64,000 nucleotides of DNA from Myxococcus sp. RHSTA-1-4 (GTDB lineage Bacteria > Myxococcota > Myxococcia > Myxococcales > Myxococcaceae), in contig NZ_JAIQDG010000021.1 of assembly GCF_020037125.1 (NCBI RefSeq), forward strand, positions 62,001-126,000, read 5' to 3'. A program made the position numbers and the translations under genes. Of this stretch, positions 23,981 to 51,714 are shown piece by piece. Numbering within the stretch: position 1 is the first letter of the stretch; each line of letters opens with the position of its first letter. The notes beneath the pieces were generated by a model. That model searched no databases, had not been told where the DNA came from, and saw nothing but the letters and a program-made list of their open reading frames with translations.

Positions 23981-24009
23981 CGCCACGAAGATGTCACGCC
24001 GCCGTCACC
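23981..24009 (+). promoter_or_regulatory. Pho-box-like triple repeat upstream of phoB (first copy)
   Basis: Three 7-nt half sites, CGCCACG, TGTCACG and CGTCACC, are separated by 4-nt spacers and so recur every 11 nt. This is the geometry of PhoB sites (two 7-bp repeats, 4-bp spacer). It lies 134 nt before the phoB ATG, suggesting autoregulation. Confidence 0.55.
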
Positions 24010-29925: not shown

Positions 29926-31469
29926 TGCGCACCTCCGGAAACGAGATTGTTGGAAGAGACCTGCGCCGCCAGCGCGGAGCCGGAAGGCTTCCGCGTGCCA
30001 CTGCGGGTCCAGATGTCCTCGAGCGACTCCATCCACACCGTTCCACCCGTCTTGCGGTGGGTGTCGGCCCAGCTCTCCAGCGCCTCGTGGCCGGAGTGGT
30101 CCAGCGTCTCCAGCGCGAGGTCCACGTCCACCTTCGCGCCGGCGGGCACCTGCGCCAGCGCCGCGGACAGCTTGGGGACGCCCACGAAGGTGAGCGCGCC
30201 CGACACGTGGACCTGGTACGCCTCGCCCTTCTGGCGCACGTCCACGTGGACGCTGCCCAGGTGCCACAGCAGCCTCAGCATCGCCACCAGCAGGCCCAGG
30301 CCGATGCCCGCCAGCAGGTTGATGCCGACGACACCTCCCACCGTGACGAGGTAGACGGCCAGCTCGCCGCGGCGGTGCAGCTCGCGGATGTGGTGCACGT
30401 TCACCAGCTTCACGCCGACGACGACCAGCAGGCCCGCCAGCACCGTCAGGGGCACCAGGCCCGCGACGGAGCCCAGCAGCGTGACGAAGAGCAGCAGCCA
30501 GACGCCGTGGAGGATGGCCGACACCCGCGTCTTCGCGCCGGCCGCGGTGTTCGCCGCGCTGCGCACGATGACGCCGGTGATGGGCAGCCCGCCGGCGAGA
30601 CCGGAGACCGTGTTCGCCATGCCCTGCGCGAACAGCTCGCGGTCCAGGTTGGCCCGCGGCCCCGTGTGCATCTTGTCCGTGGCCACCGCGCACAGGAGCG
30701 ACTCGGCGCTGGCCACCAGCGCCAGTGAGATGACCGCCGCCGCGAACGGCCCCCAGTTGCCCTCCGGCAGGGACGGGAACTGGAAGCTGCTGAAGACGTT
30801 CTCCGGCAGGTTCACCCGCGCCACGTCCGCGCCCCACAGCGTCGCCACCACCGTGGCGCCCAGCACGGCCACCAGCGGCCCCGGCACCGCCTTCAGGCGC
30901 TTCACCGGAATCACCTGCCACACCACCAGCAGGCCGATGGTCAGCAGGCCCAGCAGGGTCGCCGGACCATGGAGGTCCGCGACCTGCCCCGGCAGCTCAC
31001 GCAGGTTCTGCCACGCGCTGGACTGGGGAGCGCCCCCCAGCACGATGTGGAGCTGGCCCAGGACGATGAGGATGCCGATGCCCGCCAGCATGCCGTGGAT
31101 GACGGCGGGAGAGATGGCCAGCGCCGCGCGCGCCACCTTGAGCCCACCGAAGAGCATCTGCAGGAGCCCGGCCGCCGCCACCGCCGCGCATGTCGTGGCC
31201 AGCCCGAACTGCTGGATGAAGCCGAACACCATCACCGCCAGCCCGGCCGCCGGCCCGCTCACCTGCAGCGGCGCGCCACCGAACAGGCCCACCACCACGC
31301 CACCCACCACGCCGGCAATCAGCCCGGAGATGATGGGCGCGCCCGACGCCAGCGCGATGCCCATGCACAGGGGCAGTGCCACCAGAAAGACCACCAGGGA
31401 TGAAGGCAGGTCCGTGGCGAGCACCTGCCACGGAGTCATCGCCTTCCCAGGATTCTTCACCTTCTCCAT
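29922..31469 (-). CDS. SulP-family anion transporter (possible bicarbonate transporter)
   Basis: 515 residues from the ATG at 31469 (GTGGAGG ribosome site). Multiple membrane segments with the SulP core (SSLVVFLVALPLCMGIALAS, GLPITGVIVRSAANTAAGAK) precede a C-terminal STAS domain (about 425-500; YQVHVSGALTFVGVPKLSAA). SulP members carry sulfate, bicarbonate or other anions; the carbonic anhydrase partner favours bicarbonate, as in SulP-CA pairs and BicA, but this is inference. A sigma-54 promoter lies about 55 nt upstream. Confidence 0.9.
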   Translation of the reverse strand: MEKVKNPGKAMTPWQVLATDLPSSLVVFLVALPLCMGIALASGAPIISGLIAGVVGGVVVGLFGGAPLQVSGPAAGLAVMVFGFIQQFGLATTCAAVAAAGLLQMLFGGLKVARAALAISPAVIHGMLAGIGILIVLGQLHIVLGGAPQSSAWQNLRELPGQVADLHGPATLLGLLTIGLLVVWQVIPVKRLKAVPGPLVAVLGATVVATLWGADVARVNLPENVFSSFQFPSLPEGNWGPFAAAVISLALVASAESLLCAVATDKMHTGPRANLDRELFAQGMANTVSGLAGGLPITGVIVRSAANTAAGAKTRVSAILHGVWLLLFVTLLGSVAGLVPLTVLAGLLVVVGVKLVNVHHIRELHRRGELAVYLVTVGGVVGINLLAGIGLGLLVAMLRLLWHLGSVHVDVRQKGEAYQVHVSGALTFVGVPKLSAALAQVPAGAKVDVDLALETLDHSGHEALESWADTHRKTGGTVWMESLEDIWTRSGTRKPSGSALAAQVSSNNLVSGGAQ

Positions 31470-31522
31470 CACACCTCCACGAGAGGGCGCCATGACCTGG
31501 CGCACGCTGAGCCCCGGGGGTG

Positions 31523-34787: not shown

Positions 34788-35477
34788 ATGTCCCATGTCC
34801 TCATCGTCGACGACGAGCGCGACCTCGCCGAGCTCATTGACTTCAACCTGCGGGGCGCTGGCTTCACCACCCACCTGGCCTTCACGGGAGAGGCGGCCCT
34901 GGCCGCGGCGCGCGAGCGCCCCCCGGAGCTCGTCCTCCTGGACCTGATGCTGCCGGACATGTCGGGCATCGACGTGTGCCGCCACCTGCGGGCGAGCGCG
35001 CAGTCGCGCGGCGTGCTCATCGTCATGCTCACCGCCAAGGGCGAGGAGTCGGACCGCATCCGCGGCTTCGAGGTGGGCGCGGACGACTATGTCGTGAAGC
35101 CCTTCAGCGTGAGGGAGCTGGTGCTGCGCCTCAAGGCCATCCTCCGCCGCAGCGGCCCGCCCCAGGGCCGCGCCGCGCCGCTGGCGCTGGGCCCGCTCAA
35201 GCTGGATGTGTCCGCCCACCGCTTCTACGTCGAGGACAAGGAGGTGGCGCTGACGGCCCTCGAGTTCCGCCTGCTCGAGCACCTGATGTCCAGGCTGGGG
35301 CGCGTGCAGACGCGCGAGCAGCTCCTCGAGGAGGTCTGGGGGCTGTCCTCCTCGCTGGAGACGCGCACCATCGACACCCACGTCATGCGCCTGCGCGACA
35401 AGCTGGGCCCCGCCCGCGCGCTGCTCGAGACGGTGCGCGGTGTGGGCTACCGCATCATGAGTCCGGCCACGGAGTGA
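34788..35477 (+). CDS. phoB: Second PhoB/OmpR-family response regulator, without adjacent kinase
   Basis: 229 residues. Receiver with D8-D9, D52 (LVLLDLMLPDMSG) and Lys in YVVKPFSVREL; winged-helix C-terminus (ALEFRLLEHLMSRLGRVQTR, VRGVGYRIM). It is closely similar to the PhoB at 24143. It lies directly upstream of pstS and divergent from the NtrB/NtrC pair, with no kinase of its own. An orphan PhoB-type regulator named PhoP4 has been described in Myxococcus xanthus; whether this is its orthologue cannot be decided here. Confidence 0.88.
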   Translation: MSHVLIVDDERDLAELIDFNLRGAGFTTHLAFTGEAALAAARERPPELVLLDLMLPDMSGIDVCRHLRASAQSRGVLIVMLTAKGEESDRIRGFEVGADDYVVKPFSVRELVLRLKAILRRSGPPQGRAAPLALGPLKLDVSAHRFYVEDKEVALTALEFRLLEHLMSRLGRVQTREQLLEEVWGLSSSLETRTIDTHVMRLRDKLGPARALLETVRGVGYRIMSPATE

Positions 35478-35480
35478 CTT

Positions 35481-35520
35481 CGTTACGCGGATGTCACGGG
35501 GAAGCCGCGACATGGTCACA
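35481..35520 (+). promoter_or_regulatory. Pho-box-like phased repeats upstream of pstS
   Basis: The half sites CGTTACG, TGTCACG and GGTCACA occur in 11-nt register, with a degenerate unit (AGCCGCG) in the third position. A -10-like CAATAG lies 6 nt after the last unit, and pstS starts 65 nt after the array. The arrangement fits PhoB activation of pstS. Confidence 0.6.
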
Positions 35521-35584: not shown

Positions 35585-36406
35585 ATGAAGACCTTCCTCA
35601 AGTCGCTCGTCGCGGTGCTGCTGGTGGCCCTTCCGGTGGCCGCCCAGGCCGGCACCGTCACCGTCAAGGGCTCGGACACCATGGTCATCCTCGGGCAGCG
35701 CTGGGCCGAGGAGTTCATGAAGAAGAACGCCGGCGCCAAGGTGCAGGTCACCGGTGGCGGCTCCGGCACCGGTCTGGCCGCGCTGCAGAACGGCACCACG
35801 GACATCGCCATGTCCAGCCGGGACATCAAGAAGGCGGAGAGCGACAAGCTCCGTGCGAAATACAACACCGCCGCCGAGGAGATTCCGGTGGCGAAGGACG
35901 GCGTCACCTTCTACGTCAACGAGGGCAACCCGGTGAACGCCCTCTCCGTGGAGCAGCTCCGCGGCATCTACCTGGGTGACATCACCAACTGGAAGGAAGT
36001 CGGCGGCCCGGACGCGCCCATCGTCGTCTACTCCCGCGAGAACTCCTCCGGCACCTACGTCTTCGTGAAGGACAACGTGCTCAACGGTGAGGACTACGTC
36101 GCCTCCGCCCAGACACTGCCCGGCACCGCCGCGGTGGTGAACGCCGTCGCCAAGGAGAAGCACGGCATCGGCTACGGCGGCTCCGCCTATGCCAAGGGCA
36201 TCAAGGAGCTGAAGGTCAAGCAGGGCAACGAGGAGATCGCCCCCACCGCCGACAACATCAAGTCCGGCAAGTACCCCCTGTCGCGCAACCTCTACTTCTA
36301 CCTGCGCAACAAGCCGGCGGGCGAGGTCAAGGCCTTCATCGACTACGCCCTGTCCCCCGAGGGCCAGGCCGTCGTCACCAAGGTCGGCTACTTCCCCGTG
36401 AAGTAG
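35585..36406 (+). CDS. pstS: Phosphate ABC transporter substrate-binding protein PstS
   Basis: 273 residues with a signal peptide (MKTFLKSLVAVLLVALPVAA, cleavage after AQA). Phosphate-binding motifs are VKGSDTMVILG, TGGGSGTGLAALQNGTTDIA and SRENSSGTYVF. There is no lipobox, so the protein should be periplasmic and soluble. The upstream in-frame extension covers phoB and is an artefact. It is the first gene of pstSCAB-phoU, preceded by Pho-box-like repeats. Confidence 0.96.
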   Translation: MKTFLKSLVAVLLVALPVAAQAGTVTVKGSDTMVILGQRWAEEFMKKNAGAKVQVTGGGSGTGLAALQNGTTDIAMSSRDIKKAESDKLRAKYNTAAEEIPVAKDGVTFYVNEGNPVNALSVEQLRGIYLGDITNWKEVGGPDAPIVVYSRENSSGTYVFVKDNVLNGEDYVASAQTLPGTAAVVNAVAKEKHGIGYGGSAYAKGIKELKVKQGNEEIAPTADNIKSGKYPLSRNLYFYLRNKPAGEVKAFIDYALSPEGQAVVTKVGYFPVK

Positions 36407-36412
36407 TCCTTC

Positions 36413-36430
36413 CGTCACACGATTGTCACG
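36413..36430 (+). promoter_or_regulatory. Pho-box-like repeat between pstS and pstC
   Basis: CGTCACA, a 4-nt spacer (CGAT) and TGTCACG form the exact 7-4-7 Pho-box geometry within the 41-nt pstS-pstC gap. It ends 17 nt before the annotated pstC ATG, so a promoter here would favour initiation at the downstream ATG at 36466. Confidence 0.5.
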
Positions 36431-36447: not shown

Positions 36448-37458
36448 ATGGATAGACAGGCGGTCATGCAGCAGGGTCTCGCGGAAACCATTCCAGTGCC
36501 GCGCCTTTCTCCGGAAGCGCGGCGGCGGCAGCTCCGGGAGAAGGCCATCGCGGGCTTCATCACGCTGATGGCCTTCACCGGCATCGCCGCTCTGGTGCTC
36601 ATCCTCGTCTTCGTGGCCAAGGAGGCGCTGGCGCTCTTCACGGAGGCCGAGGCCCGCCACGAGGCCAGCCTCTCCAAGATGTTCCTGCCGCAGGTGGTCC
36701 GCCAGGGCCGCCCGCCCGCCTTCGTCTGGCAGCCGGTCTCCAACGTCCCCAAGGTCAGCATGATTCCGCTGTTCATCGGGACGCTGAAGACCACCGCCGT
36801 CTCCATGCTGGTGGCCGTGCCGGTGGGCGTCTTCGGCGCGCTGTACGCCGCGGAGTTCGCGCCGCGCCGGCTGCGCGAGCTGCTCAAGCCCGTCATCGAG
36901 CTGCTGGCCGGCATCCCCTCCGTGGTGCTGGGCTTCTTCGCGCTGATGGTGATGGCCACCGTGCTCCAGGACGCCTTCGGCCTGCACACCCGCCTCAACG
37001 CGGTGGTGGCCGGCCTGGGGCTGGCGCTGGCCATCGTCCCCGTCATCTTCACGGTGGCCGAGGACTCGCTCACCGCGGTGCCGCGCAGCTACCGCGAGGC
37101 GTCCCTCGCGCTGGGCGCCACCCCGTGGGAGACGGCCTGGAAGGTGGTGCTCCCCGCCGCCGCCCCCGGCATCCTCGCCGCGTGCGTGCTGGGCTTCGGC
37201 CGCGCCATCGGCGAGACGATGATCATCCTCATGGCCTCCGGGAACGCGGCCATCGTCTCCGCCAACCTCGGCGACTCGGTGCGCTCGCTGTCGGCCACCA
37301 TCGCCGCGGAGATGGGGGAGGTCGTGGTGGGCAGCACGCACTACTCCATCCTCTTCTTCATCGGCGTGCAGCTCTTCCTCTTCACCTTCGTCCTCAACAT
37401 GCTGGCCTCGGCCTGGACGAAGCGGGTCATCAAGCGGCTGACCGGGAGCGCCTCGTGA
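36448..37458 (+). CDS. pstC: Phosphate ABC transporter permease PstC
   Basis: 336 residues with about six membrane segments. The binding-protein-dependent permease block ([20 protein letters not shown] followed by LPAAAPGILAACVLGFGRAI) is clear. An alternative start, ATG at 36466 (MQQGLAETIPVP), has AGGCGG upstream and may be the true one. The stop overlaps pstA (GTGA). It pairs with PstA to form the inner-membrane phosphate channel. Confidence 0.95.
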   Translation: MDRQAVMQQGLAETIPVPRLSPEARRRQLREKAIAGFITLMAFTGIAALVLILVFVAKEALALFTEAEARHEASLSKMFLPQVVRQGRPPAFVWQPVSNVPKVSMIPLFIGTLKTTAVSMLVAVPVGVFGALYAAEFAPRRLRELLKPVIELLAGIPSVVLGFFALMVMATVLQDAFGLHTRLNAVVAGLGLALAIVPVIFTVAEDSLTAVPRSYREASLALGATPWETAWKVVLPAAAPGILAACVLGFGRAIGETMIILMASGNAAIVSANLGDSVRSLSATIAAEMGEVVVGSTHYSILFFIGVQLFLFTFVLNMLASAWTKRVIKRLTGSAS

Positions 37459-38366
37459 CGTACACCTCGCGCCGCGCGGTGGGGCTGGCCCTCACCACGC
37501 TCACCGGGCTGGCCGCCTTCATCATGGTGGCCATGCTGGCCCTCATCCTCCTGGACGTCGTCGCCAACGGCGCCGGCCACGTCACCTGGGAGTTCCTCAC
37601 CCAGCCGCCCTCCGACGGGATGATGGGCGGCGGCATCTTCCCCGCCATCGTCGGCACCGCGGCGCTCACCCTGCTGATGACGCTGGCGGTGATGCCGGTG
37701 GGGGTGCTGACGGCCGTCTACCTGCACGAGTACGCCCCGCCGGGCTCCCGGCTCGCGCGCTGGGTACGCGTGGCGGTGGTGAACCTGGCGGGCGTGCCCT
37801 CCATCGTCTTCGGCCTCTTCGGCCTGGGCTTCTTCATCCTCTTCGTCGGCCGGGGCATGGACCGGATGCTCGGCCACGAGGAGATGTACTGGGCCCAGCC
37901 GGGCATCCTCTGGGCCTCGCTCACGCTGGCGGTGCTGACGCTGCCCGTGGTCATCGTCTCCACGGAGGAGGCCCTGCGCGCGGTGCCGCTGGACCACCGC
38001 ACCGCCAGCCTCGCGCTGGGCGCCACCCAGTCCCAGACGCTGGCGCGGGTGGTGCTGCCGGGCGCGCTGCCGGGCATCCTCACCGGGACCGTGCTGGCCA
38101 TCTCCCGCGGCGCGGGCGAGGTGGCCCCCATCCTCTTCACCGGGGCCGCCTACTTCCTCCCGGACCTGCCGAGCCGGCTCAACTCCCAGTTCATGCACCT
38201 GGGCTACCACACGTACGTGCTGGCCACCCAGTCCCCGGACGTGGAGGCCACCCGCCCGCTGTTGTATGCGACGGTGCTGGTGCTGCTGCTGCTCACCTTC
38301 GCCCTCAACCTCGTCGCGGTCATCATCCGGACGCGCACGCGCCGCAAGGCCGCCGGCGCCCACTGA
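37455..38366 (+). CDS. pstA: Phosphate ABC transporter permease PstA
   Basis: 303 residues from a GTG overlapping the pstC stop by 4 nt. About six membrane segments; the permease signature is [20 protein letters not shown] with [20 protein letters not shown]. It forms the second half of the phosphate channel. The C-terminus is basic ([12 protein letters not shown]). A longer frame beginning inside pstC is a reading artefact. Confidence 0.95.
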
Positions 38367-38379
38367 CGGTACGCCTTCC

Positions 38380-39156
38380 ATGACCCTCCAGCACTCCCCA
38401 CCGCGCGCGAAGATGGAGGCGCGGGAGCTGACCCTCCGCTACGGCACCAAGACGGCCATCAGCAGGATTTCCCTGGCCATCCTCGACCGTCAGGTGACGG
38501 CCCTCATCGGCCCCTCCGGCTGCGGGAAGTCCACCTTCCTGCGCTCGCTCAACCGGATGAACGACCTCATTCCGGGCACCCACCACACCGGCCACATCCT
38601 GCTGGACTCCATGGACATCCACGACCGCAGCGTGGACGTGGTGGACCTGCGCCGCCGCGTGGGCATGGTGTTCCAGAAGTCCAACCCCTTCCCCAAGAGC
38701 ATCTTCGAGAACGTGGCCTACGGCCTGCGCGTGGGGGGGATGAAGGACAAGGCGGAGCTGGCCAACCGGGTGGAGAAGTCCCTGCGCGGCGCCGCCCTCT
38801 GGGACGAGGTGAAGGACCGCCTCAACGAGAGCGCGCTGGGCCTGTCCGGCGGCCAGCAGCAGCGCCTGTGCATCGCCCGCGCCATGGCCGTGGAGCCCGA
38901 GGTGCTGCTGATGGACGAGCCGGCGAGCGCGCTGGACCCCATCGCCACCGCGAAAATCGAGGAGCTCATCCACGAGCTGAAGGCGCAGTACACCATCGCC
39001 ATCGTCACCCACAACATGCAGCAGGCTGCCCGCGTGTCGGACCGGACGGCTTTCTTCTACATGGGCGAGCTGGTGGAATGCGGGCCCACGGAGCAGATCT
39101 TCACCAACCCGCGTGAGAAGCGCACCGAGGACTACGTCACCGGGAAGTTCGGGTGA
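38380..39156 (+). CDS. pstB: Phosphate ABC transporter ATP-binding protein PstB
   Basis: 258 residues from the ATG at 38380. Walker [20 protein letters not shown], the PstB-specific [19 protein letters not shown], signature [14 protein letters not shown] and Walker [14 protein letters not shown] are all intact. It powers PstCA and, with PhoU and PhoR, takes part in phosphate signalling. It lies 13 nt after pstA. Confidence 0.97.
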
Positions 39157-39185: not shown

Positions 39186-39872
39186 ATGCCGGCGACGCAT
39201 ACGGACAAGGCCTTCGAGCAGGACCTGCGGGACTTGCGCGAGAAGCTCCTGGCGATGGGGGCGAAGGTGGAGAACCTCATCGCGCAGAGCGTGAAGGCCC
39301 TCACCGAGCGCGACAGCCCGCTCGCGGAGAAGGTCGTCGCGGCGGACAAGGACGTCAACCGCCTGGAGGTGGAGATTGACGAGCTGTGCCGGCGCATCCT
39401 CGCGCTGCGCCAGCCGGCCGCCAGTGACTTGCGCCTCATCACCACCGCGCTGAAGATCGTCACCGACCTGGAGCGCATCGGCGACCTGGCCGTCAACATC
39501 GCCGAGCGCTCCATGGACCTCAACCAGGTCCCCCCGCTGGCCCCGTACATCGACACGCCCCGGCTGGCGGAGCTGGCGCAGCAGCAGGTGAAGAAGGCGC
39601 TGGACTCCTTCGTCTCCGGCGACGTGGCCAAGGCGGAGGAGGTGCTCCAGGGGGATGACCTGCTGGATGCCCTCTTCCTGAAGATCTTCAACGAGCTCCT
39701 CGCGTACATGATGGAGGACTCGAAGAACATCCGCCGGGCCACCGCGCTGATGTTCATCGCCAAGCACCTGGAGCGCATCGGCGACCACGCGATGAACGTG
39801 GCGGAGATGGTGGTCTACATGGTGCGCGGCAAGGACATCCGCCACCCGCGCAGCCGCAACCTCCCCGAGTAG
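39186..39872 (+). CDS. phoU: Phosphate signalling protein PhoU
   Basis: 228 residues from the ATG at 39186; a GTG at 39153 overlapping the pstB stop is a possible longer start. Two PhoU helical repeats are visible, each ending with a metal-binding E-R-I-G-D motif (TDLERIGDLAVNIAER and KHLERIGDHAMNVAEM). PhoU links the Pst transporter to PhoR and keeps the regulon off in high phosphate. It is the last gene of the pst operon. Confidence 0.95.
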   Translation: MPATHTDKAFEQDLRDLREKLLAMGAKVENLIAQSVKALTERDSPLAEKVVAADKDVNRLEVEIDELCRRILALRQPAASDLRLITTALKIVTDLERIGDLAVNIAERSMDLNQVPPLAPYIDTPRLAELAQQQVKKALDSFVSGDVAKAEEVLQGDDLLDALFLKIFNELLAYMMEDSKNIRRATALMFIAKHLERIGDHAMNVAEMVVYMVRGKDIRHPRSRNLPE

Positions 39873-39882
39873 CCGGGCGCTG

Positions 39883-39900
39883 CTTCACCGGGCCGTCACC
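39883..39900 (+). promoter_or_regulatory. Pho-box-like repeat upstream of the glycosyltransferase gene
   Basis: CTTCACC, a 4-nt spacer (GGGC) and CGTCACC again show 11-nt phasing. It starts 11 nt after the phoU stop and lies about 77 nt before the glycosyltransferase start. It is weaker than the pstS and pstC sites because one half site lacks the central G. Confidence 0.4.
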
Positions 39901-39976
39901 GAGAATTGGCCCGGGCGCCGCGAGCGCTTCGCGGGCCTGTCTCAAGGCACCTCTAGCGTGGCACCCGGGTCGCGCG

Positions 39977-41218
39977 ATGACCGCGCGCCCACCTGGGGAC
40001 TGCCCGCGAATGCTGCTCGCCTCCGGCCTCTTGCTGCTCGCCGCCCTCTTCGGTCTCACCGCCCTCGTCATCCAGTACGTCCTCGTGCTCCGCCACCGGA
40101 GCGAGCCGCCCCGGCCCTTCCCCGCCGGCGCCCGCCGGCCCGGCATCTCCATCCTCAAGCCGCTGTGCGGCGTGGATGACGACCTGGAGGCCAACCTGGA
40201 GCAATTCGCCCGGCTGGACTACGCGGGTGAGTACGAGGTGGTGCTGGGCGTGAAGGACACGCGGGACGCCGCCTTCGCGGTGGCGCGGGCGGCGGTGGCC
40301 CGCTGGCCGCACGTCATGCGCCTGGAGTTCCAGGTGGGCGAGCCGGGGCTGAATCCAAAGGTGAACCAGCTCATCACCCTGGCGGACCGGGCGCGCTTCG
40401 ACATCCTCGTCATCAGCGACAGCAACACGCGCGTGGCGCCGGGCTACCTGGAGGAAATCGCCGCGGGCTTCGCGGACCCCTCCGTCGGGTGCGTGACGCA
40501 CCCGGTGGCGGGCATCGGAGAGCGGACGTTCGGCTCGCTGCTGGACAACCTCTACCTGGCCGCGAGCGCCGCGGCGGGGATGATTGCCGCCAAGCGCTTC
40601 GCCGGCCAGGACATCGTGGTGGGCAAGTCCATGGCACTGCGGCGCGAGGACGTGGACGCGCTGGGGGGCTTCTACTCCGTGCGCAACGTGCTGGCGGAGG
40701 ACTACGTCATCGGACAATGGGTGACGCGCAAGCTGGGCCGGCGGGTGGTGGTGGCGCGCACGCCGGTATTCAACGTGTCGCTGCGCAAGAGCGTCAGCGC
40801 CTTCTTCCAGCGCTACCTGCGCTGGAGTGTCATCCACCGCACGGCGGTGTCGCCGTCCACGTACCTGGCGCAGGCCCTGCTCAACCCGGTGCCGCTGGCC
40901 CTCCTCGGCGCGCTGCTTCTCCCCTCCCCGGCGACGGGCACCGTGGCCAGCTTGATTGTGCTGGGCAAGGTGGCGGTGGACCTGGCCGCCTTCCGCGCGC
41001 TGCGCCCGGAGTCCGTGCCCTGGGACGCGGTGCCGGGCGTGCTGGTCAAGGACGCGCTGCTCTTCGCCGCGTGGTGGCACGGCCTCTTCTTCCGCACCGT
41101 GAACTGGCGCGGCACGAAGCTGCGCGTGGCGCCGGGCACCCGGCTGGTGCCGCTGCGCGTCACGGCCTCCGCGCCGGACGCGGGCGACGAACTGTTCGCG
41201 GGTGACCTCGCGAGCTGA
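39977..41218 (+). CDS. Ceramide-glucosyltransferase-like glycosyltransferase (GT21/HpnI-like)
   Basis: 413 residues from the ATG at 39977; the ATG at 40010 (MLLASGLLLLAALFG) begins right at the first membrane helix and is equally possible. GT21 features: ISILKPLCGVDDDLEANL, the metal-binding D-x-N in ILVISDSNTRV, ALRREDVDALGG, acidic AEDYVIG and the QRYLRW (Q/R-x-x-R-W) motif, with C-terminal membrane helices. Relatives glycosylate ceramide, diacylglycerol or hopanoid lipids. The Pho-box-like site upstream and the pst neighbourhood suggest a role in phosphate-limited membrane remodelling (inference). Confidence 0.8.
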   Translation: MTARPPGDCPRMLLASGLLLLAALFGLTALVIQYVLVLRHRSEPPRPFPAGARRPGISILKPLCGVDDDLEANLEQFARLDYAGEYEVVLGVKDTRDAAFAVARAAVARWPHVMRLEFQVGEPGLNPKVNQLITLADRARFDILVISDSNTRVAPGYLEEIAAGFADPSVGCVTHPVAGIGERTFGSLLDNLYLAASAAAGMIAAKRFAGQDIVVGKSMALRREDVDALGGFYSVRNVLAEDYVIGQWVTRKLGRRVVVARTPVFNVSLRKSVSAFFQRYLRWSVIHRTAVSPSTYLAQALLNPVPLALLGALLLPSPATGTVASLIVLGKVAVDLAAFRALRPESVPWDAVPGVLVKDALLFAAWWHGLFFRTVNWRGTKLRVAPGTRLVPLRVTASAPDAGDELFAGDLAS

Positions 41219-41293
41219 CGCAGCCCTGTTTCACACGTCTTGCGCCACATTCACCGGACGGCCCTGATGCGGACGCGAGGAATGCCTATCTCC

Positions 41294-42133
41294 ATGGGCA
41301 TGCCCATCCGGACGCTGGCACACCTGTCGGACCTGCACCTGGACCTGAGCCCCCAGAGCGACGCCTCGGCCCGCGCGCTGGTGGAGGCGCTCCAGGCCGA
41401 GGCCGTGGACCATGTGGTGGTGACGGGGGACCTGACGCACCAGGGCGGACATGGGGAGTACCACCGCTTCCGCGACATCTTCGCGCCCCTGCTGGACACC
41501 GGGCGGCTCACCTTCATCCCCGGCAACCATGACCGGCCCGGCGACGATGCCGGCTGTGCGTGGATGGAGGGAAACAAGGTGCGCACGGTGGAGACTCCAG
41601 GACTCTTCCTGGTGTGCGTGGACTCCACGGGCGCCCACAACCGCAACTACTTCGCCAGCCACGGGGCGCTGTCCCACGCGGAGCTGGACGCGGTGGACGC
41701 GGCGCTGGAGGCCGCGCCTCGCGGTGCCCTGGCCGCGGTGCTGGTGCACCACCACGTGCTGCCGCTGCCCGAGGAGAGCTTCCCGGAGCGGCTGGCCACG
41801 CTGCTGGGCTGGCCCCACGCGGCGGAGCTGCCGCTGGGGGCGGAGTGGCTGACACGCCTCCAGGGACGGTGCGACCTGGTGCTGCACGGCCACCGCCACG
41901 TGCCCCGTGAGCGCGTGCTGGAAGGGGCCGGAGGGCGGCCGCTGCGCATCTACAACGCGGGCAGTTCCACGGAGCTGGGCCGCTTCCGGATGTTCCGCCA
42001 CTCGGCCGGCCGGCTGCAGGGCGAGCCGTCCTGGTGCCGCTCGTCGGTACCCGAGCAGCCCCGCACGGCGGGCCACAACGTGCGCCCGGCATTGCAGTAC
42101 CTGGTCGCGCAGATCGGCATCGCGCTGTTCTAG
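41294..42133 (+). CDS. Metallophosphoesterase (3',5'-cyclic-nucleotide-phosphodiesterase-like)
   Basis: About 280 residues. Calcineurin-like motifs run in order: HLSDLHLD, VVTGDLTHQG, PGNHDRPGD, LVHHHVLPLPE and LHGHRHV. The core resembles CpdA/YkuE-type enzymes. Start codon is uncertain: ATGs at 41282, 41294 and 41300 are all in frame just before the first motif; the nearest ribosome-like GAGGA is at 41277. Substrate unknown. A perfect hairpin begins at the stop codon. Confidence 0.82.
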   Translation: MGMPIRTLAHLSDLHLDLSPQSDASARALVEALQAEAVDHVVVTGDLTHQGGHGEYHRFRDIFAPLLDTGRLTFIPGNHDRPGDDAGCAWMEGNKVRTVETPGLFLVCVDSTGAHNRNYFASHGALSHAELDAVDAALEAAPRGALAAVLVHHHVLPLPEESFPERLATLLGWPHAAELPLGAEWLTRLQGRCDLVLHGHRHVPRERVLEGAGGRPLRIYNAGSSTELGRFRMFRHSAGRLQGEPSWCRSSVPEQPRTAGHNVRPALQYLVAQIGIALF

Positions 42134-42662: not shown

Positions 42663-43976
42663 ATCGTCACCGAACTCGTCATCATCCTGCTGCTGGTCCT
42701 GGCCAACGGCGTCTTCGCCGGGGCGGAACTGGCGGTGCTCTCCCTGCGCCGGACGCGGCTGCGGGAGCTGATCGACGAGGGCAGCCACTCGGCGAAGGCG
42801 GTGGAGAAGCTGAGGGGAGACCCGGAGCGCTTCCTCGCCACGGTGCAGATTGGCATCACCGTCATCGGCGCCACGGCGGCGGCCTTCGGCGGCGCGAGCA
42901 TCTCCACCCGGCTGGGCGGCGTGCTGGCCGGCCTGGGCGTTCCCGAGCAGCAGGCGGAGAGCATCGCCTTCGCGGCGGTGGTGGCGTTCGTCTCGTACCT
43001 GTCGCTGGTGCTGGGGGAGCTGGTGCCCAAGTCGCTCGCCCTGCGCGCTGGCGAGCGCTACGCGCTGTTCATCGGCCGGCCCCTGCACGGGCTGTCCTGG
43101 CTGATGCGGCCGGTGGTGTGGTTCCTCACGGCCAGCTCCAACGTGGTGCTGCGGCTGTTCGGAGACAGGACGAACTTCAGCGAGGGGCGGCTGTCGGCGG
43201 AGGAGCTGCAGCAGCTGGTGGAGGAGGCGGCGAAGCAGGGCACGCTGGACCCGCGCGCGGGGGAGATTGCCTCGCGGGCCTTCGACATGAGCGAGCTGAC
43301 GCTGGGCGAGCTGATGGTGCCGCGCGAGCACATCGTCGCCCTGCGGCGGCACTCGGGCGCGGAGGAGATCCGCCAGGTGCTGCTGGAGCACGGCCACTCG
43401 CGCATGCCGGTGTACGAGGAGACGCTGGACAACATCGTCGGCTACGTCATCGCCAAGGACCTGCTCGGCGTGGCGTGGGAGGGCAACCTCATCGTCCTCG
43501 AGGACGTGATGCGCCCGCCCTTCTTCCTGGTGGAGTCCATGCGGGCCATCGACGCGATGAAGGAGCTGCAGCGGCGGCGGATGCAACTCGCGGTGGTGGT
43601 GGACGAGCGCGGCGGCGTGGTGGGGCTGGTGACGGTGGAGGACCTGGTGGAGGAGCTCGTCGGAGACATCCTCAGCGAGTCCGAGACGCCGGAGGAGTTC
43701 GTGAAGCGCGAGGGCCCCACCACCGCGGTGGTGCAGGCCTCCGCGGCCCTGCGCGACGTCAACCGCGAGCTGGGGCTGGACCTGGACGAGTACCAGGACT
43801 ACTCGACGGTGGCGGGCCTGTGCATCGCCCTGGCCGGTGGTGCCATTCCGGAGCCGGGGCGGAAGCTCCAGGCCGAGGACGGCCTGGTGCTGGAGGTGCT
43901 GGAGTCGTCACCCCGGCGCGTGCGGACGGTGCGCTTCCACCTGCCGCCGCGGCCTCCCGAGCACGCGGAGGCGTGA
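42663..43976 (+). CDS. CNNM/CorC-type (hemolysin C family) membrane protein
   Basis: About 438 residues if translation begins at ATC 42663, 5 nt after AGGAGGG. The in-frame N-terminus VTELVIILLLVLANGVFAGA is the expected first membrane helix of the family. No ATG, GTG or TTG exists there; the first conventional start is GTG 42735, which would delete that helix. Domain order: CNNM membrane domain (to about 200), paired CBS domains (LGELMVPREHIVALRR, VMRPPFFLVES) and a CorC_HlyC domain. Family members are linked to magnesium or cobalt efflux. Confidence 0.82.
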   Translation: MVTELVIILLLVLANGVFAGAELAVLSLRRTRLRELIDEGSHSAKAVEKLRGDPERFLATVQIGITVIGATAAAFGGASISTRLGGVLAGLGVPEQQAESIAFAAVVAFVSYLSLVLGELVPKSLALRAGERYALFIGRPLHGLSWLMRPVVWFLTASSNVVLRLFGDRTNFSEGRLSAEELQQLVEEAAKQGTLDPRAGEIASRAFDMSELTLGELMVPREHIVALRRHSGAEEIRQVLLEHGHSRMPVYEETLDNIVGYVIAKDLLGVAWEGNLIVLEDVMRPPFFLVESMRAIDAMKELQRRRMQLAVVVDERGGVVGLVTVEDLVEELVGDILSESETPEEFVKREGPTTAVVQASAALRDVNRELGLDLDEYQDYSTVAGLCIALAGGAIPEPGRKLQAEDGLVLEVLESSPRRVRTVRFHLPPRPPEHAEA

Positions 43977-45703: not shown

Positions 45704-48700
45704 TCAGCAGCGACGACGGCGCCGGCTCGCCAGCAGGGCAAGCCCGCCCAGCCCCACCAGGGCCAGAATGGGGCTTGCCTCCCCTCCCCCGCTGGAGCAA
45801 CTCAGGCCGCCACCCTTCGTCCGGACGTCGGAGCCCAGGTAGACGCGCCACGAGATGAGCTCGGGCGAGGAGTCCCGGTTCAGGGCGGCGTCCACCGCCC
45901 GGACCTTGAGCGTGTACGTGCCCTCGAGCAGCTCCTCATAGACGAGGGTGGCGGAGCACGGCAGGTAGTCCTCGCCGTTGAGGCTGCACTCGAACTGGGC
46001 GTCGGGCTCGTTCGACGAGAAGCGGAACGAGGCGCGTGGCACGCGGATGCGCACGTCCGGCTTCTCGTCCACGCGCGTCTGCGGCTCCAGCGTGTCCACC
46101 GAGAACCGCCGCGCCTCGCTGGCGGTGCTGGTGTTCATCGCGGCATCCACGCCCAGCAGGTGCGCCTCGTGCTCGTCGTTCCCCAGGTCCAGCGCGGGCG
46201 TGAGGCTCCAATTCCCCGCCGCGTCCACGTCCACCGTCTGCACCTCCGTCCCGTCCACGAAGAGCACCACCCGGGTGCCCGGCTCGGCCGTCCCGCTGAA
46301 GGTCGGCCGCGCCACGTTCATCCTCCGCCCTTCAGAGGGCTCCACCAGCACCGGCACGGCGGGAGCGAGGGTGTCGATGGTCCACTGGGCCACCGCGGGC
46401 GAGGGGTCATCGTTGAGGGCCGCGTCCGTGGCGCGCACATAGAGCGTGTAGGCGCCGTCCTGGAGCGTGTACTGGAACGGGTCGGGACACGCCGTGTAGT
46501 CCACGTTGTCGAAGCTGCAGAAGAGCGAGGCTCCCGGCTCGGTCTGCGCCTGGAATGACACCTGGGGCGTGGACACGAGCGGGTCCGGCTTGCTGCTCAG
46601 GGTGGTCTCGGGGGGCCGCAGGTCCACCGTCCAGCGGAACAGCTCCGTCGGGCTGCCGGCGTTGCCCAGGTTGTCCACCGACTGCACCTGGAAGGTGTGC
46701 TCGCCATGGGTGAGGCCCGAGAACTGGGCCTCGCTGATGCGGTTCACCGCGTCCACCACGGTTCCGCACCGCGAGAAGCCCCGGCCGTCCAGGTCGCACT
46801 CGAAGGTGACGTTGTCCTTGTTGGTGCTGAAGCGGAACGTCGCGCTGGGGGAGTTGGTGAGACTTCCGGGCGTGCTGACGAGCGTCGTCCCCGGCAGGTT
46901 CGAATCGACCGTCCAGGTGAAGGAGATGTTCGCGGAGACGTTGCCCGTCGTATCGGTGCCGCGGGCCACCAGGGTGTGCTCGCCATCCACGACAGGGAAC
47001 GTGGCCGGGTTGGAGCACGAGGCGAACACGGCATTGTCCAGGCTGCACTCGAAGGTGACCGCCGACTCGTTCGAGCCGAAGCCGAAGGTCGCCGTCTGGC
47101 TGTTGGTGCGCCCCCCCGGGAACCTGACGGGCGTGCTGGTGAACTGGATGACCGGCGCGATGCTGTCCACGAACCAGGGGTAGGTCTCGGGAGTGGGGTC
47201 CACGTTGCCCGACTCATCCGCGGCGCGAACCGTGAGCGAGTGCTGCCCCTGCCCCACGGTGAACGTATAGGGGCTGGTCACCCTCCGGAAGCTCATCTCA
47301 CCATCGAGCCGGACGTCGAACACCGCGGCGGGGTCATTGGAGGAGAACTCGAACGTCGCGCTGGTTTCCCGGGTCAGCGCCGCCGGGCCGCTCACGATGG
47401 TCGTCTCCGGAGAGTCCGTATCCACGATGAAGGACCGCGCGCTGCTCGCCGGGCCCACGTTTCCGGCGGCGTCCCGCGCCGTGGCCGTCACCGAGTAGGC
47501 GCCGTCCGCGAGCGGGGCGAAGGTGAATGACCAGTTCCCACTGCCGTCCGCGGACGTCGCGGGCTGCGCCACCACCCCCAGCATGACGGTGATGGTGGCG
47601 TTCGCCTCGGCGGTGCCCTGAATCGTCGGGGTGCTGGTGATCGACCTCGTCCCATTCGTCGCGGGCACGGTGATGACCGGAGCCACGGGAATGACCGTAT
47701 CCACCACCCAGATGGAAACGGCGGGGGTGGCATCCCGGTTGCCCGCCCCATCCACCGCCACCACCTCCAGTCGGTGGGAGCCGTCGGCGACAGTCACCGA
47801 GTGGCTCGCCGGGCACACGGCCTCGCTGCCGCTGTCGAGCCGGCAGCGGAACGTCACCCCGGACTTGTTGGAGGCGAACTGGAACGCGGCGGTGGAGGTG
47901 TTGGTGATGGAGGGCGGCCCGGACTCGATGAACGTGCTGACGGGGGACTGGTCCACGCTCCAGCGGTGCTCCGCTGGGGTGGCGTCCGTGTTCCCCGCGC
48001 GGTCCTTCGCCCGGGCGCGCAGCACGTGGGCCCCCTCGCTCACGGTGATGACGTGGGGGTCGTTACAGGCCTCGAAGGCTGCCCCGTCCAGGCTGCACTC
48101 GAAGTCGACGGGGCTCTCCGAGGCATTCAGGTCGAAGGTGGCCTGGAGCTGGTTGGTCTGGGCCGTGGGCCCGGAGACGATGGTTGCGTTGGGTATCGAC
48201 GTATCGACGGTGAAGGAGTTGGCGGGATCGGAGTCCACGCTCTCATTTCCCGCTGCGTCCCGGGCTCTCGCCCGGACGTTGTGGGAGCCGTCGGCCAGCG
48301 TGGCCGTCAACTGCAACTGCCAGCGGCCGGCGGAGTCCACCAGCGGCATCGTCGCGTGGGGAGTGCCGTCGACCCGCACGATGATGGTCGCTCCGACCTC
48401 TCCCGTTCCGGTGATGAGCGGCGTCGCCGTGCTCACGAAGGACGCATTCCCGGGAGTGCTGATGACCGGCACCGGAGGGATGCCGGTATCCACCCGCCAC
48501 GAGTGGACGGCGGGCGTGGGGTCCGCGTTGTCCGCGGCGTCCAGGGCGCGTACGAGCAGGGTATGCGGCCCCGCTCCGACCGTGGGCGTATGCGAGGCGG
48601 GGCACGAAGAGTAGTCCGCCCCATCCAGGCTGCACTCGAACCGGTTTCCCCCCACCGAGGTGAACGTGAAGGTGGGCGTCGTGTCGCTGCTCGGGTTGGT

Positions 48701-51694
48701 GGGCGACCCGGTGATGGTGGTCTCGGGCGGCGTGAGGTCCACGGAGAAGTTGACCGTGGTGTTCGCGCTGGAGTTGCCGGCGGCGTCGCGTACCTGCGCC
48801 ACGAGCGCATGGGTGTTCTCGGAGACGGACTGCGGAATCACGAAGCTCCAGCTCCCCGCGGCGTTGACGACCGCCTCTCCCTGGTGCTGGGTATCCAGGC
48901 TGATGGAGACGATGGTGCCCGCCTCCGCGGTGCCACGCACCGTCACCACGTCGGTATTGAGGGCATCGTTGTTGGCGGGAGCCAGCACCACGGGCGCCGA
49001 CGGCGCGACGCTGTCCACGGTGAAGGTCCGCGTCACCGAGAAGCCGCTGGAGTTGCCTGCGGCGTCCTTCACCAGCGCCCGGAACCAATGGAGGCCCTGC
49101 CCCAGGTCGGCCGGCTGCGTCAGGGTCCAGGAGCCGCCGGCGGCTGCCGTGGCCGTCCCCTGCAACAACTGGTCATCCACGTACACCTCGACCGTTCCCC
49201 CCACTTCCGCCGTCCCCGTGTAGGTGGGGCGCACAGTGGTCAGCAGCGCCCCGTTGGCGGGCGTCGCCAGCGTCGGCGCCGAGGGCGCGACGGAGTCCAC
49301 GGAGAAGGAGCGCGCCGCCGACGCGGCGCTCACGTTCCCGGCTCGGTCCCTGGAGCGGACCGTCACGGTGCGCGTGCCCTGGTTCAGAGGGGAGTCGGGC
49401 GTGTAGGTCCAGTCAGCCGTGCCGCTTCCCGTGTCGCTCACCTGGGCCTGTGCCTCGGGCATGCCGTCGATGGTCACCAACACCTGGAGTCCCACGTCGG
49501 CATCCGTGAGGGTAACGGTCCCTCGCAGAGTCGGCCGGGCCGTGGCCAGGACCTGGCCCGTGGTCGGGCTGCCCACGGCGGGAACCGCCGGCACAAAGGT
49601 GTCCACCGTGAAGAAGCGCAAGAGGCTCGACGCGCTGCCCTCCCCATTGGAGGCCGTGACACGGATGGAATGGGTCCCCTCGGACAGGGTCGAGGCCGTG
49701 TACGTCCACGAGGTGCCAGACGGGTTCACGCTATCCACCTCGCTGCCATCGATGAGGATGCTCAACGCGGTGGTATTGCCGCTGACCGTGCCGGTGAAAG
49801 TCGGCGTGTTGTCCGACAGGTATGCGTTCGCGGCCGGAGAGGTGATGGTGGGCACGCCAGGCATCGCGGTCGGGTCGAAGTCCATGACCGCGGGAGTCAG
49901 GTCGACGTTCCCCGCGCTATCGCTGGCGCGGACCCGCAGCGAGTGCCTGCCGTCGGCCAGCCCCGACATCCGGTAGGGAGACCGGCAGGGATTGAAGGGC
50001 CCCCGGTCCAGGCTGCACTGGTACGCGACGCCCGGCTCGGTGGCGCCGAACTCGAGCGTGGCCTCTCCAGAGGCCGCCAGTCCCGGGGCCCTGACAATCG
50101 ACGTCTCGGGGGGCGTCACGTCCACGGAGAACATGCGCTCCGCGGTGCGCGGGCCCTGGGCCCCGGCGGCCACCGCCGCAACGGAGACCCGGTGCGGCGT
50201 CTCCGCGAGCCGGGCCTCGGGTACGAAGGCCCACGCGCCGGTGGCGTCCGCGCGCGTCCGGCCCAGCGCGTCGCCATCCACGAAGACGATGACCTCGTCC
50301 CCGGACCGCGCCGTGCCGGAGAACAGCGGCTGCGCGGCGGGCAGCACCGCGCCCTCGACGGGCACGAGCAACACCGGCGCGGGAGGAGCGCGGAAGCCGC
50401 CCTCGAGCAGCTCCACCACGCCCTGGAAGCGCGCGTCGTCCACCGCCGTGGGCGAGGCCCCATTCGAACCGCCATCCACCGCCACTCCCGCACGTCCCGG
50501 CTCCACCCGCGCGGCACAGCTCGAGCCCGCCTCGGCCTGGAAGAGGACACGCCCGCCACCGCCACCACCGCCGGGCGCCCGGAGCGCCCGCCCGGTGCTG
50601 TCTCCACCCCGGCCACCCTGCGCCAGCAGCTCCGCGCACGAGGCCGCCTCCGCGACGCGCAGGGAGATACTGCCACCGGCGCCACCGCCACCCGCGCCAT
50701 CATTCACGGAGCTGCCGCCCGCCTCACCCGAGGCCTCCAGGCGGCCGCTCCCGACGAGCCGGGACGCGCGCACGAAGATGATGCCGCCACCGCGGCCCCC
50801 ATCCGGCCCCGGCGGGTCCGCCAGCCCATGTCCGGCGCCGCCACCACCGCCGAAGGTGAGCCGCTCCAGCAGGGACTGCCCCGCCACGGCGCCTCCCAGG
50901 CCGCCCACGTCGCGCGCGCCATCATCCGTCGCCGTCCTGCCGCCCTGCCCTCCCTGGCCACCATGCCCGCCACCGCCGCCACCCGACTGCCGGCACACCC
51001 CACCACCGCCACCATTGGCGTCATTGCCACGGCCCGTCAGCAGCGGAAGGGCGGTCGTCGGAGGCGCCACGCTCTCACCGCGCTGCGCCCCACCCGCGCC
51101 CTCCAGGCTCAGCGCGCCGCACCCCGCGGCGTTGGTCCAGTCCCGGACATACGCACCGCCACGGAAGCCCGCGCCGCGCGCGTCGATGAGCCCCTGGTTC
51201 TTCACGATGCCCGTGGCCAGGAAGGCCACCACGCCCCCCGTCTCTCCATTCCACGGCTCCGCGGCCAGGCTTCCGCCGCGAGCAATGGTGACGTCGGTGT
51301 ACTCGGGGACGCGAAGCACCTGGGTGCCCGGGGCGTCGAAGAACTCCACCAGGGGCCGCGTGAGATTCAGCGTCCGGCTGCTCACGGTGGCCACCCGGGC
51401 CAGCTCCCAGCGCCCGGCGCCCGCCGTGTCGGCGGTGCCCGTCCCGGTGGCCTGGAGCACCAGGACCAGGTCACCGTTGCCGAAACCGGCGGTGGACGAC
51501 ACGGGGATGGCCGTGGCTCCCGCCCCCAGGGCGGACGTCACGCGCGCCGCGGCGTTGACCTTCACGCCCGGAGCCGTGACGGTCAGCGCGCCATCCCTCC
51601 CGCTTCCGAGACCGAAGGCATCCGGCTCGGCCGCGGCGGTGGCGGCCAGCAACAACGTACCCAGCACCCACGCATGGGGCAGCGACGTTCTCAT
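45704..51694 (-). CDS. Giant Ig-repeat surface protein with MYXO-CTERM-type sorting tail
   Basis: 1996 residues from the ATG at 51694; a signal peptide (MRTSLPHAWVLGTLLLAATA) is followed by a region of about 400 residues very rich in Gly runs, then about 17 Ig-like modules. Two module types interleave: one with P-x-F-x-G-T-A-x-x-G-x-x-V-x-V-x-x-D-G, and one with a cysteine pair (F-x-C-S-L-D-G with a second C about 7-8 residues on). The C-terminus has Cys-Ser, a hydrophobic helix (PILALVGLGGLALLA) and SRRRRR, matching the MYXO-CTERM tail processed by myxosortase. A surface adhesin or coat protein is inferred. It lies 20 nt after the OmpA/TSP3 gene on the same strand. Confidence 0.9.
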   Translation of the reverse strand: MRTSLPHAWVLGTLLLAATAAAEPDAFGLGSGRDGALTVTAPGVKVNAAARVTSALGAGATAIPVSSTAGFGNGDLVLVLQATGTGTADTAGAGRWELARVATVSSRTLNLTRPLVEFFDAPGTQVLRVPEYTDVTIARGGSLAAEPWNGETGGVVAFLATGIVKNQGLIDARGAGFRGGAYVRDWTNAAGCGALSLEGAGGAQRGESVAPPTTALPLLTGRGNDANGGGGGVCRQSGGGGGGHGGQGGQGGRTATDDGARDVGGLGGAVAGQSLLERLTFGGGGGAGHGLADPPGPDGGRGGGIIFVRASRLVGSGRLEASGEAGGSSVNDGAGGGGAGGSISLRVAEAASCAELLAQGGRGGDSTGRALRAPGGGGGGGRVLFQAEAGSSCAARVEPGRAGVAVDGGSNGASPTAVDDARFQGVVELLEGGFRAPPAPVLLVPVEGAVLPAAQPLFSGTARSGDEVIVFVDGDALGRTRADATGAWAFVPEARLAETPHRVSVAAVAAGAQGPRTAERMFSVDVTPPETSIVRAPGLAASGEATLEFGATEPGVAYQCSLDRGPFNPCRSPYRMSGLADGRHSLRVRASDSAGNVDLTPAVMDFDPTAMPGVPTITSPAANAYLSDNTPTFTGTVSGNTTALSILIDGSEVDSVNPSGTSWTYTASTLSEGTHSIRVTASNGEGSASSLLRFFTVDTFVPAVPAVGSPTTGQVLATARPTLRGTVTLTDADVGLQVLVTIDGMPEAQAQVSDTGSGTADWTYTPDSPLNQGTRTVTVRSRDRAGNVSAASAARSFSVDSVAPSAPTLATPANGALLTTVRPTYTGTAEVGGTVEVYVDDQLLQGTATAAAGGSWTLTQPADLGQGLHWFRALVKDAAGNSSGFSVTRTFTVDSVAPSAPVVLAPANNDALNTDVVTVRGTAEAGTIVSISLDTQHQGEAVVNAAGSWSFVIPQSVSENTHALVAQVRDAAGNSSANTTVNFSVDLTPPETTITGSPTNPSSDTTPTFTFTSVGGNRFECSLDGADYSSCPASHTPTVGAGPHTLLVRALDAADNADPTPAVHSWRVDTGIPPVPVISTPGNASFVSTATPLITGTGEVGATIIVRVDGTPHATMPLVDSAGRWQLQLTATLADGSHNVRARARDAAGNESVDSDPANSFTVDTSIPNATIVSGPTAQTNQLQATFDLNASESPVDFECSLDGAAFEACNDPHVITVSEGAHVLRARAKDRAGNTDATPAEHRWSVDQSPVSTFIESGPPSITNTSTAAFQFASNKSGVTFRCRLDSGSEAVCPASHSVTVADGSHRLEVVAVDGAGNRDATPAVSIWVVDTVIPVAPVITVPATNGTRSITSTPTIQGTAEANATITVMLGVVAQPATSADGSGNWSFTFAPLADGAYSVTATARDAAGNVGPASSARSFIVDTDSPETTIVSGPAALTRETSATFEFSSNDPAAVFDVRLDGEMSFRRVTSPYTFTVGQGQHSLTVRAADESGNVDPTPETYPWFVDSIAPVIQFTSTPVRFPGGRTNSQTATFGFGSNESAVTFECSLDNAVFASCSNPATFPVVDGEHTLVARGTDTTGNVSANISFTWTVDSNLPGTTLVSTPGSLTNSPSATFRFSTNKDNVTFECDLDGRGFSRCGTVVDAVNRISEAQFSGLTHGEHTFQVQSVDNLGNAGSPTELFRWTVDLRPPETTLSSKPDPLVSTPQVSFQAQTEPGASLFCSFDNVDYTACPDPFQYTLQDGAYTLYVRATDAALNDDPSPAVAQWTIDTLAPAVPVLVEPSEGRRMNVARPTFSGTAEPGTRVVLFVDGTEVQTVDVDAAGNWSLTPALDLGNDEHEAHLLGVDAAMNTSTASEARRFSVDTLEPQTRVDEKPDVRIRVPRASFRFSSNEPDAQFECSLNGEDYLPCSATLVYEELLEGTYTLKVRAVDAALNRDSSPELISWRVYLGSDVRTKGGGLSCSSGGGEASPILALVGLGGLALLASRRRRRC

Positions 51695-51714
51695 AGGTCG
51701 TCTCTTTCCTGGCC

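Follow-up and report, generated by a model that had tools for sequence, protein, structure and literature searches.

The window, that is the whole stretch of 64,000 nucleotides that was analysed, comes from the draft genome of a myxobacterium (11.24 Mb), and among the matches listed Pyxidicoccus fallax was its closest named relative (90% identity in the glycosyltransferase described below; records near to the window may have been omitted from these matches). The genes for a PhoB-like regulator, PstS, PstC, PstA, PstB and PhoU were all found on the plus strand, up to position 39872. They are followed by genes for a membrane glycosyltransferase, referred to here as GT, and for a metallophosphoesterase:

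34788..35477, plus strand, PhoB-like response regulator adjoining pst (open reading frame and conserved synteny; name read from the translation)
35585..36406, plus strand, pstS (TIGR02136, 246 bits)
36448..37458, plus strand, pstC (TIGR02138, 241 bits)
37455..38366, plus strand, pstA, start approximate (TIGR00974, 250 bits)
38410..39156, plus strand, pstB, start approximate (TIGR00972, 411 bits)
39186..39872, plus strand, phoU (TIGR02135, 230 bits against a cut-off of 130)
40010..41218, plus strand, GT21-type membrane glycosyltransferase (GT), 402 amino acids, ATG at 40010 (open reading frame, profiles, alignment, tree and model)
41282..42133, plus strand, calcineurin-like metallophosphoesterase, start at 41282, 41294 or 41300 (PF00149, 61 bits)
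42735-43976, after the phosphoesterase gene, CNNM-type membrane protein (profile search)

For GT an alternative in-frame ATG is present at 39977, which is less conserved in the relatives than the one at 40010. The window also contains a second phoB-like gene, followed by a phoR-like kinase gene at 24836-26197 (names read from the translations). Upstream of the cluster, on the minus strand at 29179-31505, the gene for a carbonic-anhydrase-like protein adjoins that for a SulP-type transporter (both read from translations), and downstream an open reading frame of 2004 amino acids occupies the minus strand at 45704-51718. A gene of the phosphate-selective porin O/P type, absent between phoB and pstS in the window, was found at that position in L058:4235-5488 (Pfam) and in 12 other distinct loci (clustering).

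A conserved Pho-box-like site between phoU and GT

The sites recognized upstream of the Pho genes and GT were the following:

23981..24008, plus strand, three direct repeats with an 11-base period upstream of the second phoB-like gene (pattern search)
35481..35497, plus strand, Pho-box-like CGTTACGCGGATGTCAC upstream of pstS (pattern search)
36413..36429, plus strand, Pho box CGTCACACGATTGTCAC between pstS and pstC (among the PWM sites; exact pattern match)
39882..39899, plus strand, Pho-box-like 7-4-7 direct repeat GCTTCAC-CGGG-CCGTCAC (consensus scan, conservation, PWM and shuffles)
39926..39943, plus strand, second, weaker 7-4-7-like repeat GCTTCGC-GGGC-CTGTCTC (7/14 to the E. coli consensus)
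39954..39959, plus strand, TAGCGT, conserved -10-like hexamer (alignment of 50 gaps)

In the gap of 137 bases between phoU and GT, positions 39882-39899 (GCTTCACCGGGCCGTCAC) form a direct repeat of the 7-4-7 type whose period is 11 bases; the site was found again at 39883-39899 with the pattern YGTCACN5YGTCAC. Compared with the E. coli consensus CTGTCAT-N4-CTGTCAT, the site scored 8/14, the level of chance; both strands of the window together contain 613 places with at least 8/14. In place of this consensus, a myxobacterial motif was taken from pst. A PWM was derived from the 7 distinct sites in 29 pstS-pstC gaps and applied to 50 distinct phoU-GT gaps, the window's own gap being included in each set. 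The phoU-GT set comprised gaps of 20-400 bases upstream of GTs with at least 55% identity, identical sequences being collapsed. The mean best score was 8.28 over the 50 gaps, against a mean of -0.44 and a maximum of 0.89 in 300 rounds of dinucleotide shuffling, and the observed score was not attained by any of 500 alignments with shuffled columns. On the gap of this genome alone the PWM gave a p of 0.025, which is weak.

The pattern YGTCACN5YGTCAC was matched at 11 or 12 of its 12 positions in 38/50 phoU-GT gaps and at 10 or more in 48/50, its usual form being TTCAC-N6-GTCAC. Fuller boxes occurred as CCGTCACATGGCTGTCAC (L059) and GCGTCACACCGCCGTCAC (L084); the gaps of L086 and L096 reached only 9/12, and that of L061 had one poor half site. 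A hexamer TA(G/A)(C/G)(G/C)T or TAACTT was present in 45 of the 50 gaps (a loose pattern, counted without a control), and TAGCGT may serve as the -10-like element of a promoter. The second repeat, which ends 10 bases upstream of this hexamer and is partly conserved in Myxococcus relatives, is a candidate functional element as well. Between the hexamer and the GT start (39960-40009) the sequence is longer by about 45 bases, which include an inverted repeat (GGTCGCGCGATGACCGCGCGCC), in most Myxococcus and Pyxidicoccus; these bases are missing from Corallococcus, Citreicoccus and a few others, where GT starts almost at the hexamer.

The same motif was found at pst. CGTCAC-N5-TGTCAC was present in 29/29 pstS-pstC gaps (window included; distinct sequences with at least 60% pstC identity, the short-flank loci L009-L038 being excluded). 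A site with 11 or 12 of the 12 positions lay within 130 bases upstream of pstS in 12/29 sequences (window included); in many of the remaining sequences that region is taken up by another gene or has a different leader. When one mismatch was allowed, YGTCACN5YGTCAC occurred 269 times in the whole genome, against 87 times for the reversed control. In the window it occurred five times at four places, always on the plus strand and always upstream of a Pho gene or of GT (the second phoB-like gene, pstS, pstC and GT). The mean count in shuffled windows was 1.51, five being reached in 1 of 100 shuffles, and a Poisson estimate from the genome rate gave 0.02. As this count is weak when taken alone, weight was put on conservation and position. 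Of the 18 exact matches in the genome (L166-L183), only two had an evident interpretation, namely L169 and L170 at phoB and pstC.

The 7-4-7 site that the sequence-only reading had reported between phoU and the glycosyltransferase gene was thus recovered, and its conservation in the relatives supports a putative phosphate-control site that is kept by selection. By its PhoB-type direct repeat, the same as at pst, GT is predicted to belong to the Pho regulon, and Pho control of GT is very likely from the sequence comparisons.

GT belongs to a branch of GT21 found mostly in Myxococcota

GT matched the Pfam profile PF13506 (GT21) with 151.5 bits (cut-off 21.7, E 2e-44). The only PDB sequences that matched it at E up to 1 were ceramide glucosyltransferases (26qf, 26qs), with which it shares the family and the catalytic motifs but to which it is distant (1.3e-30). 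The two could be aligned at G-x-N-P-K-x-N, D-S-N, A-E-D-Y and Q-R-Y-L-R-W. The catalytic motifs of GT21 enzymes are named D..D..D and (Q/R)xxRW. In 22 aligned sequences (window included) the aligned motifs were mostly invariant and D137, D231, R271 and W272 were invariant throughout. This supports the predicted identity of GT as a GT21 member, as had been proposed for it at first sight, and shows its catalytic motifs to be intact. Scores with ceramide glucosyltransferase were 135 bits for a rhizobial Pgt-like protein, 110 for GT and 89 for HpnI.

The structure of GT was predicted with confidence (pLDDT 91.5). Top Foldseek matches of the model were membrane GT-A folds of the hyaluronan synthase type, with cellulose synthases also among the first. 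As no ceramide glucosyltransferase was among the best 50 matches listed, the fold adds only that GT is a membrane GT-A enzyme. In a tree of 54 rows GT was placed in a branch of 46 rows, nearly all from Myxococcota (support 98/95); the tree was rooted at its midpoint, and branches were therefore read as splits. Two annotated HpnI proteins and the glycosyltransferase of the hopanoid cluster of genome G171 formed part of a separate branch of six rows (100/98), and the Pgt-like pair from Shinella and Pannonibacter was also placed outside the branch of GT. Two proteins from other phyla (L072, L073) are found inside it on long branches, and their placement is unsure. GT is a likely lipid glycosyltransferase of a GT21 branch that appears distinct from the named ones compared and is mostly confined to Myxococcota. 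Genome G161 carries a second member of the branch (L087, 52%), which lies near two genes whose translations resemble a ketoacyl synthase III and an acyl-AMP ligase; its locus of 19 kb gave no match to the Pho query genes, and the test for a Pho box was negative there.

Gene context of GT in relatives

Gene context was counted in 58 distinct loci, excluding the window itself, that were longer than 4300 bases, had a GT match of at least 250 bits and remained after removal of duplicates by GT DNA; 40 of the starting loci were hand-chosen stretches. phoU was found upstream of GT within 1 kb in 35/58 loci and within 6 kb in 38/58. The phosphoesterase gene lay on the same strand at no more than 2 kb from GT in 36/58, preceding it in L097, L098, L105 and L119 and following it in the other 32. 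One or the other (phoU within 6 kb or phosphoesterase within 2 kb) was present in 47/58 loci and neither in 11/58, some of these loci being incomplete. The earlier proposal of phosphate control agrees with this proximity to Pho genes or the same phosphoesterase in most loci as well as with the site kept by selection.

Other arrangements were also observed. GT adjoins a phoB-like gene directly in L106 and lies about 4 kb from phoB/phoR in L062, with other genes between; in L091, which is the same locus, it is followed by a gene of the cyclopropane-fatty-acid synthase type. A polyphosphate kinase gene is near GT in L106 (Pfam) and L105 (clustering), and in L066/L103 (one locus) phoU and GT are separated by an alkaline phosphatase gene. 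The gene directly 3' of GT in L096, L102, L107 and L117 belongs to one cluster. The two proteins of this cluster that were checked (L096 and L102) match DUF6938 (Pfam), and that of L096 showed a weak match to diglucosyl-diacylglycerol synthase (5e-8, 32 bits, cut-off 500). A search for this gene type in the window's genome, run without a positive control, detected no homologue. Among 35 hand-chosen regions upstream of GTs that are relocated or divergent, 7 had a Pho-like repeat with p of at most 0.05, where 1.75 would be expected (binomial 0.0015), and 28 had no significant Pho box; of the loci chosen, L066, L067, L068, L089, L096, L101, L107 and L116 are still near phoU. A record titled Comamonas sp. 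KCTC 72670 (L050) contains a pst-GT locus of the Myxococcus type with 79% GT identity and the same gene order, and its name therefore looks wrong.

The metal-binding motifs of the phosphoesterase (DxH, GD, GNHD and GHxH) were invariant in 16 sequences, and Rv0805 was the first Foldseek match of its model (pLDDT 81.6). Comparison with the PlcP-like, LpxH-annotated protein encoded upstream of the Pgt-like gene of Pannonibacter gave a non-significant E of 0.1, and no LpxH model was among its NCBIfam matches. An identity as PlcP is unsupported by this single comparison and by the profile search. At E 1e-30 the phosphoesterase had no match in 25/97 genomes with GT, nine of which are from the window's genus (G050, G054, G073, G077, G089, G090, G102, G107 and G123), and 13 genomes have it without GT. 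No phosphoesterase gene adjoins GT in M. xanthus AM003 (L045). In the M. xanthus group the phosphoesterase beside GT is missing and GT is kept; the CNNM gene is also kept in L045, L046, L047 and L050. From this distribution, the phosphoesterase would be a helper of GT at most, and a dispensable one.

Hopanoid and sphingolipid markers

Genomes were counted as having GT at 280 bits or more, which gave 97; of the 122 genomes with any match, the 25 in which it was weaker were not counted. As TIGR01825 matched in 183/193 genomes and did not discriminate, the genome's own SPT was used as the marker of sphingolipid synthesis, a match to it at E 1e-110 being scored as presence. This protein matched an SPT in the PDB at 5.3e-121 and NF047600 at 521 bits, under the cut-off of 640; the open reading frame after it was read as acyltransferase-like and had no family match. 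SPT was found in 85/193 genomes and GT in 81 of these 85 (Fisher over 193 genomes 1.7e-32, a statistic that ignores descent), and in G038 and G106, which are among the four SPT genomes left over, a more distant protein of the GT branch was found. By genus, in a table compiled by hand for the 46 genera that represent the window's order, GT was present in 20/23 with SPT and 9/23 without it (Fisher 0.002, descent again ignored). When distant relatives of GT were counted, of which those in g7, g25 and g44 were assigned by identity only, the figures became 21/23 and 15/23 (p 0.07). Conversely, this SPT was lacking in 16 of the 97 GT genomes, 8 of which are at least 95% complete. A second search of these 16 with NF047600 gave at most 332 bits (no match in G179), compared with 467-529 in three SPT genomes.

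A further candidate name for GT is HpnI, which would have it make a hopanoid glucosamine lipid: TIGR03472 was its best NCBIfam match and the nearest named model (252.9 bits over 378 residues). This score is under the cut-off of 310, and a named HpnI reached 456 bits. In the window's genome no hopene cyclase was matched at E 0.001 and no HpnH was found over the cut-off. HpnH over the cut-off was present in 16/193 genomes, only 6 of them among the 97 with GT, so that 91/97 were without it; weak HpnH-like matches are meaningless, as they were obtained in 182/193 genomes and in all 14 control genomes. Together with the position of the annotated HpnI proteins in another branch, these results led us to reject HpnI, and a hopanoid role of GT, hardly credible as its actual function, is very unlikely. 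A stronger case can be made that GT is a dedicated ceramide glycosyltransferase that makes glycosphingolipids under phosphate starvation, like Sgt1/Sgt2 of Caulobacter, for which control of such a lipid by PhoB has been described (PMC6445935). The presence of SPT in the window's genome and the company of GT and SPT across genomes and genera speak for it, and the co-occurrence in 81/85 genomes favours ceramide more than the wording of our preferred reading does. Yet this SPT type does not accompany GT wherever GT occurs, the similarity to ceramide glucosyltransferase is unspecific, with the Pgt-like protein scoring higher, and SPT and GT are on different contigs of the window's genome (C67 and C48). 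We consider a ceramide-only enzyme doubtful, though still to be reckoned with. Because of the 16 GT genomes without this SPT type, ceramide is probably not the sole acceptor; in those genomes GT would probably use another one, most simply diacylglycerol, and in Myxococcus ceramide may well be an acceptor. Genome co-occurrence thus pulls both ways between diacylglycerol and ceramide.

Two further explanations concern the kind of acceptor and the control of the gene. GT could glycosylate a polyprenyl carrier, a part of the lipopolysaccharide or another envelope glycan and be under Pho control for envelope reasons, since its fold is common to membrane GT-A enzymes with other acceptors, such as hyaluronan and cellulose synthases. 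This is improbable in view of the place of GT21 among the families of glycoglycerolipid synthases, as described in PMC8231724, and of the neighbours of GT, those that were annotated being Pho genes, a few genes of lipid type and the phosphoesterase gene. It is also conceivable that the conserved site does not control GT, which would then be carried along passively in the pst operon or be expressed constitutively; the gap is short enough for read-through from phoU and the score in this single genome is weak. We regard this as highly improbable, as the box and the -10-like hexamer are conserved in the gap across genera and the box matches those of pstC and pstS in sequence and spacing, and read-through from phoU would still give a phosphate response.

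Discussion

Lipid glycosyltransferases connected with phosphate limitation have been described in other bacteria. Pgt of Agrobacterium and Mesorhizobium is a processive GT21 enzyme with a predicted Pho box in its promoter (PMC3972451; PMC8231724), and that of Agrobacterium takes both diacylglycerol and ceramide, with a preference for diacylglycerol (PMC3972451). As far as these descriptions go, GT resembles Pgt in its family, in the predicted Pho box of its promoter and in a predicted tie to phosphate limitation. It differs from Pgt in showing only 27% identity over 252 residues to the Pgt-like protein of Pannonibacter (itself a putative Pgt), in a branch apart from the pair of Pannonibacter and Shinella by which alone Pgt was represented, and in adjoining pst-phoU and a phosphoesterase that is not PlcP-like. 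On a plasmid of Pannonibacter phragmitetus (L206:3979-6709) the gene of the LpxH-annotated phosphoesterase overlaps the 'ceramide glucosyltransferase' gene, and a GT2 gene is also present. Since the LpxH-annotated gene lies just upstream of this Pgt-like gene, the arrangement looks like plcP-pgt, and a plcP-pgt operon on a plasmid is plausible.

In Caulobacter a glycosphingolipid is formed under phosphate limitation and PhoB control, and Sgt1/Sgt2 were picked from GT4 enzymes (PMC6445935). Membership in the PhoB regulon and lipid glycosylation under phosphate starvation, known for Sgt1/Sgt2, are predicted here for GT, which as a GT21 protein is set apart from these GT4 enzymes as they are described in that report. 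The pairing of a phosphoesterase gene with a lipid glycosyltransferase gene recalls PlcP-Agt of marine bacteria and Agrobacterium (PMC4796936). Unlike Agt, which is assigned to GT4 (PMC8231724), GT is of the GT21 type, and its neighbouring phosphoesterase is nearest to Rv0805 (E 0.1 to the PlcP-like protein). For M. xanthus an SPT has been named (PMC9386255), and PhoRP systems and the orphan regulator PhoP4 have been described (PMC4415409). No title on phosphate-driven lipid remodelling in myxobacteria was among the open-literature matches listed, subscription papers falling mostly outside these.

In our best reading, to which we give a probability of about 0.6, GT would be a Pho-controlled GT21 glycolipid synthase of the inner membrane that acts on diacylglycerol and/or ceramide and spares phospholipid, by analogy with rhizobial Pgt and Sgt1/2 of Caulobacter, orthology not being implied. 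At low phosphate a PhoB-type regulator would switch on GT together with pst. The enzyme, with its predicted GT-A fold, would use a nucleotide sugar as donor and glycosylate the hydroxyl group of a lipid in the membrane. Diacylglycerol is the most likely acceptor and ceramide a second or alternative one; both are reported for Pgt. The product would be a phosphorus-free glycolipid, by which phospholipid would be spared, and the metallophosphodiesterase encoded alongside may act on phosphodiesters to release phosphate or the acceptor. The suggestion that this gene may be the myxobacterial membrane-remodelling enzyme is partly supported, in its direction, by the conserved site, the GT21 family, the tie to Pho genes and the lack of any hopanoid sign; since a genome of 11 Mb may contain further enzymes of this kind, the definite article is too strong. 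The glycosphingolipid alternative of the same suggestion corresponds to ceramide as the acceptor.

More tentatively, Myxococcota may possess a module of their own, consisting of a new, Pho-box-controlled GT21 subfamily that acts on diacylglycerol and ceramide, often with an Rv0805-like phosphodiesterase, and independent of PlcP-Agt, Pgt and Sgt, by which these predators would swap phospholipid for glycolipid at low phosphate. If this is true, deletion of GT would reveal how membrane phosphorus is managed in these predators, and a named gene would become available for myxobacterial glycolipids or glycosphingolipids.
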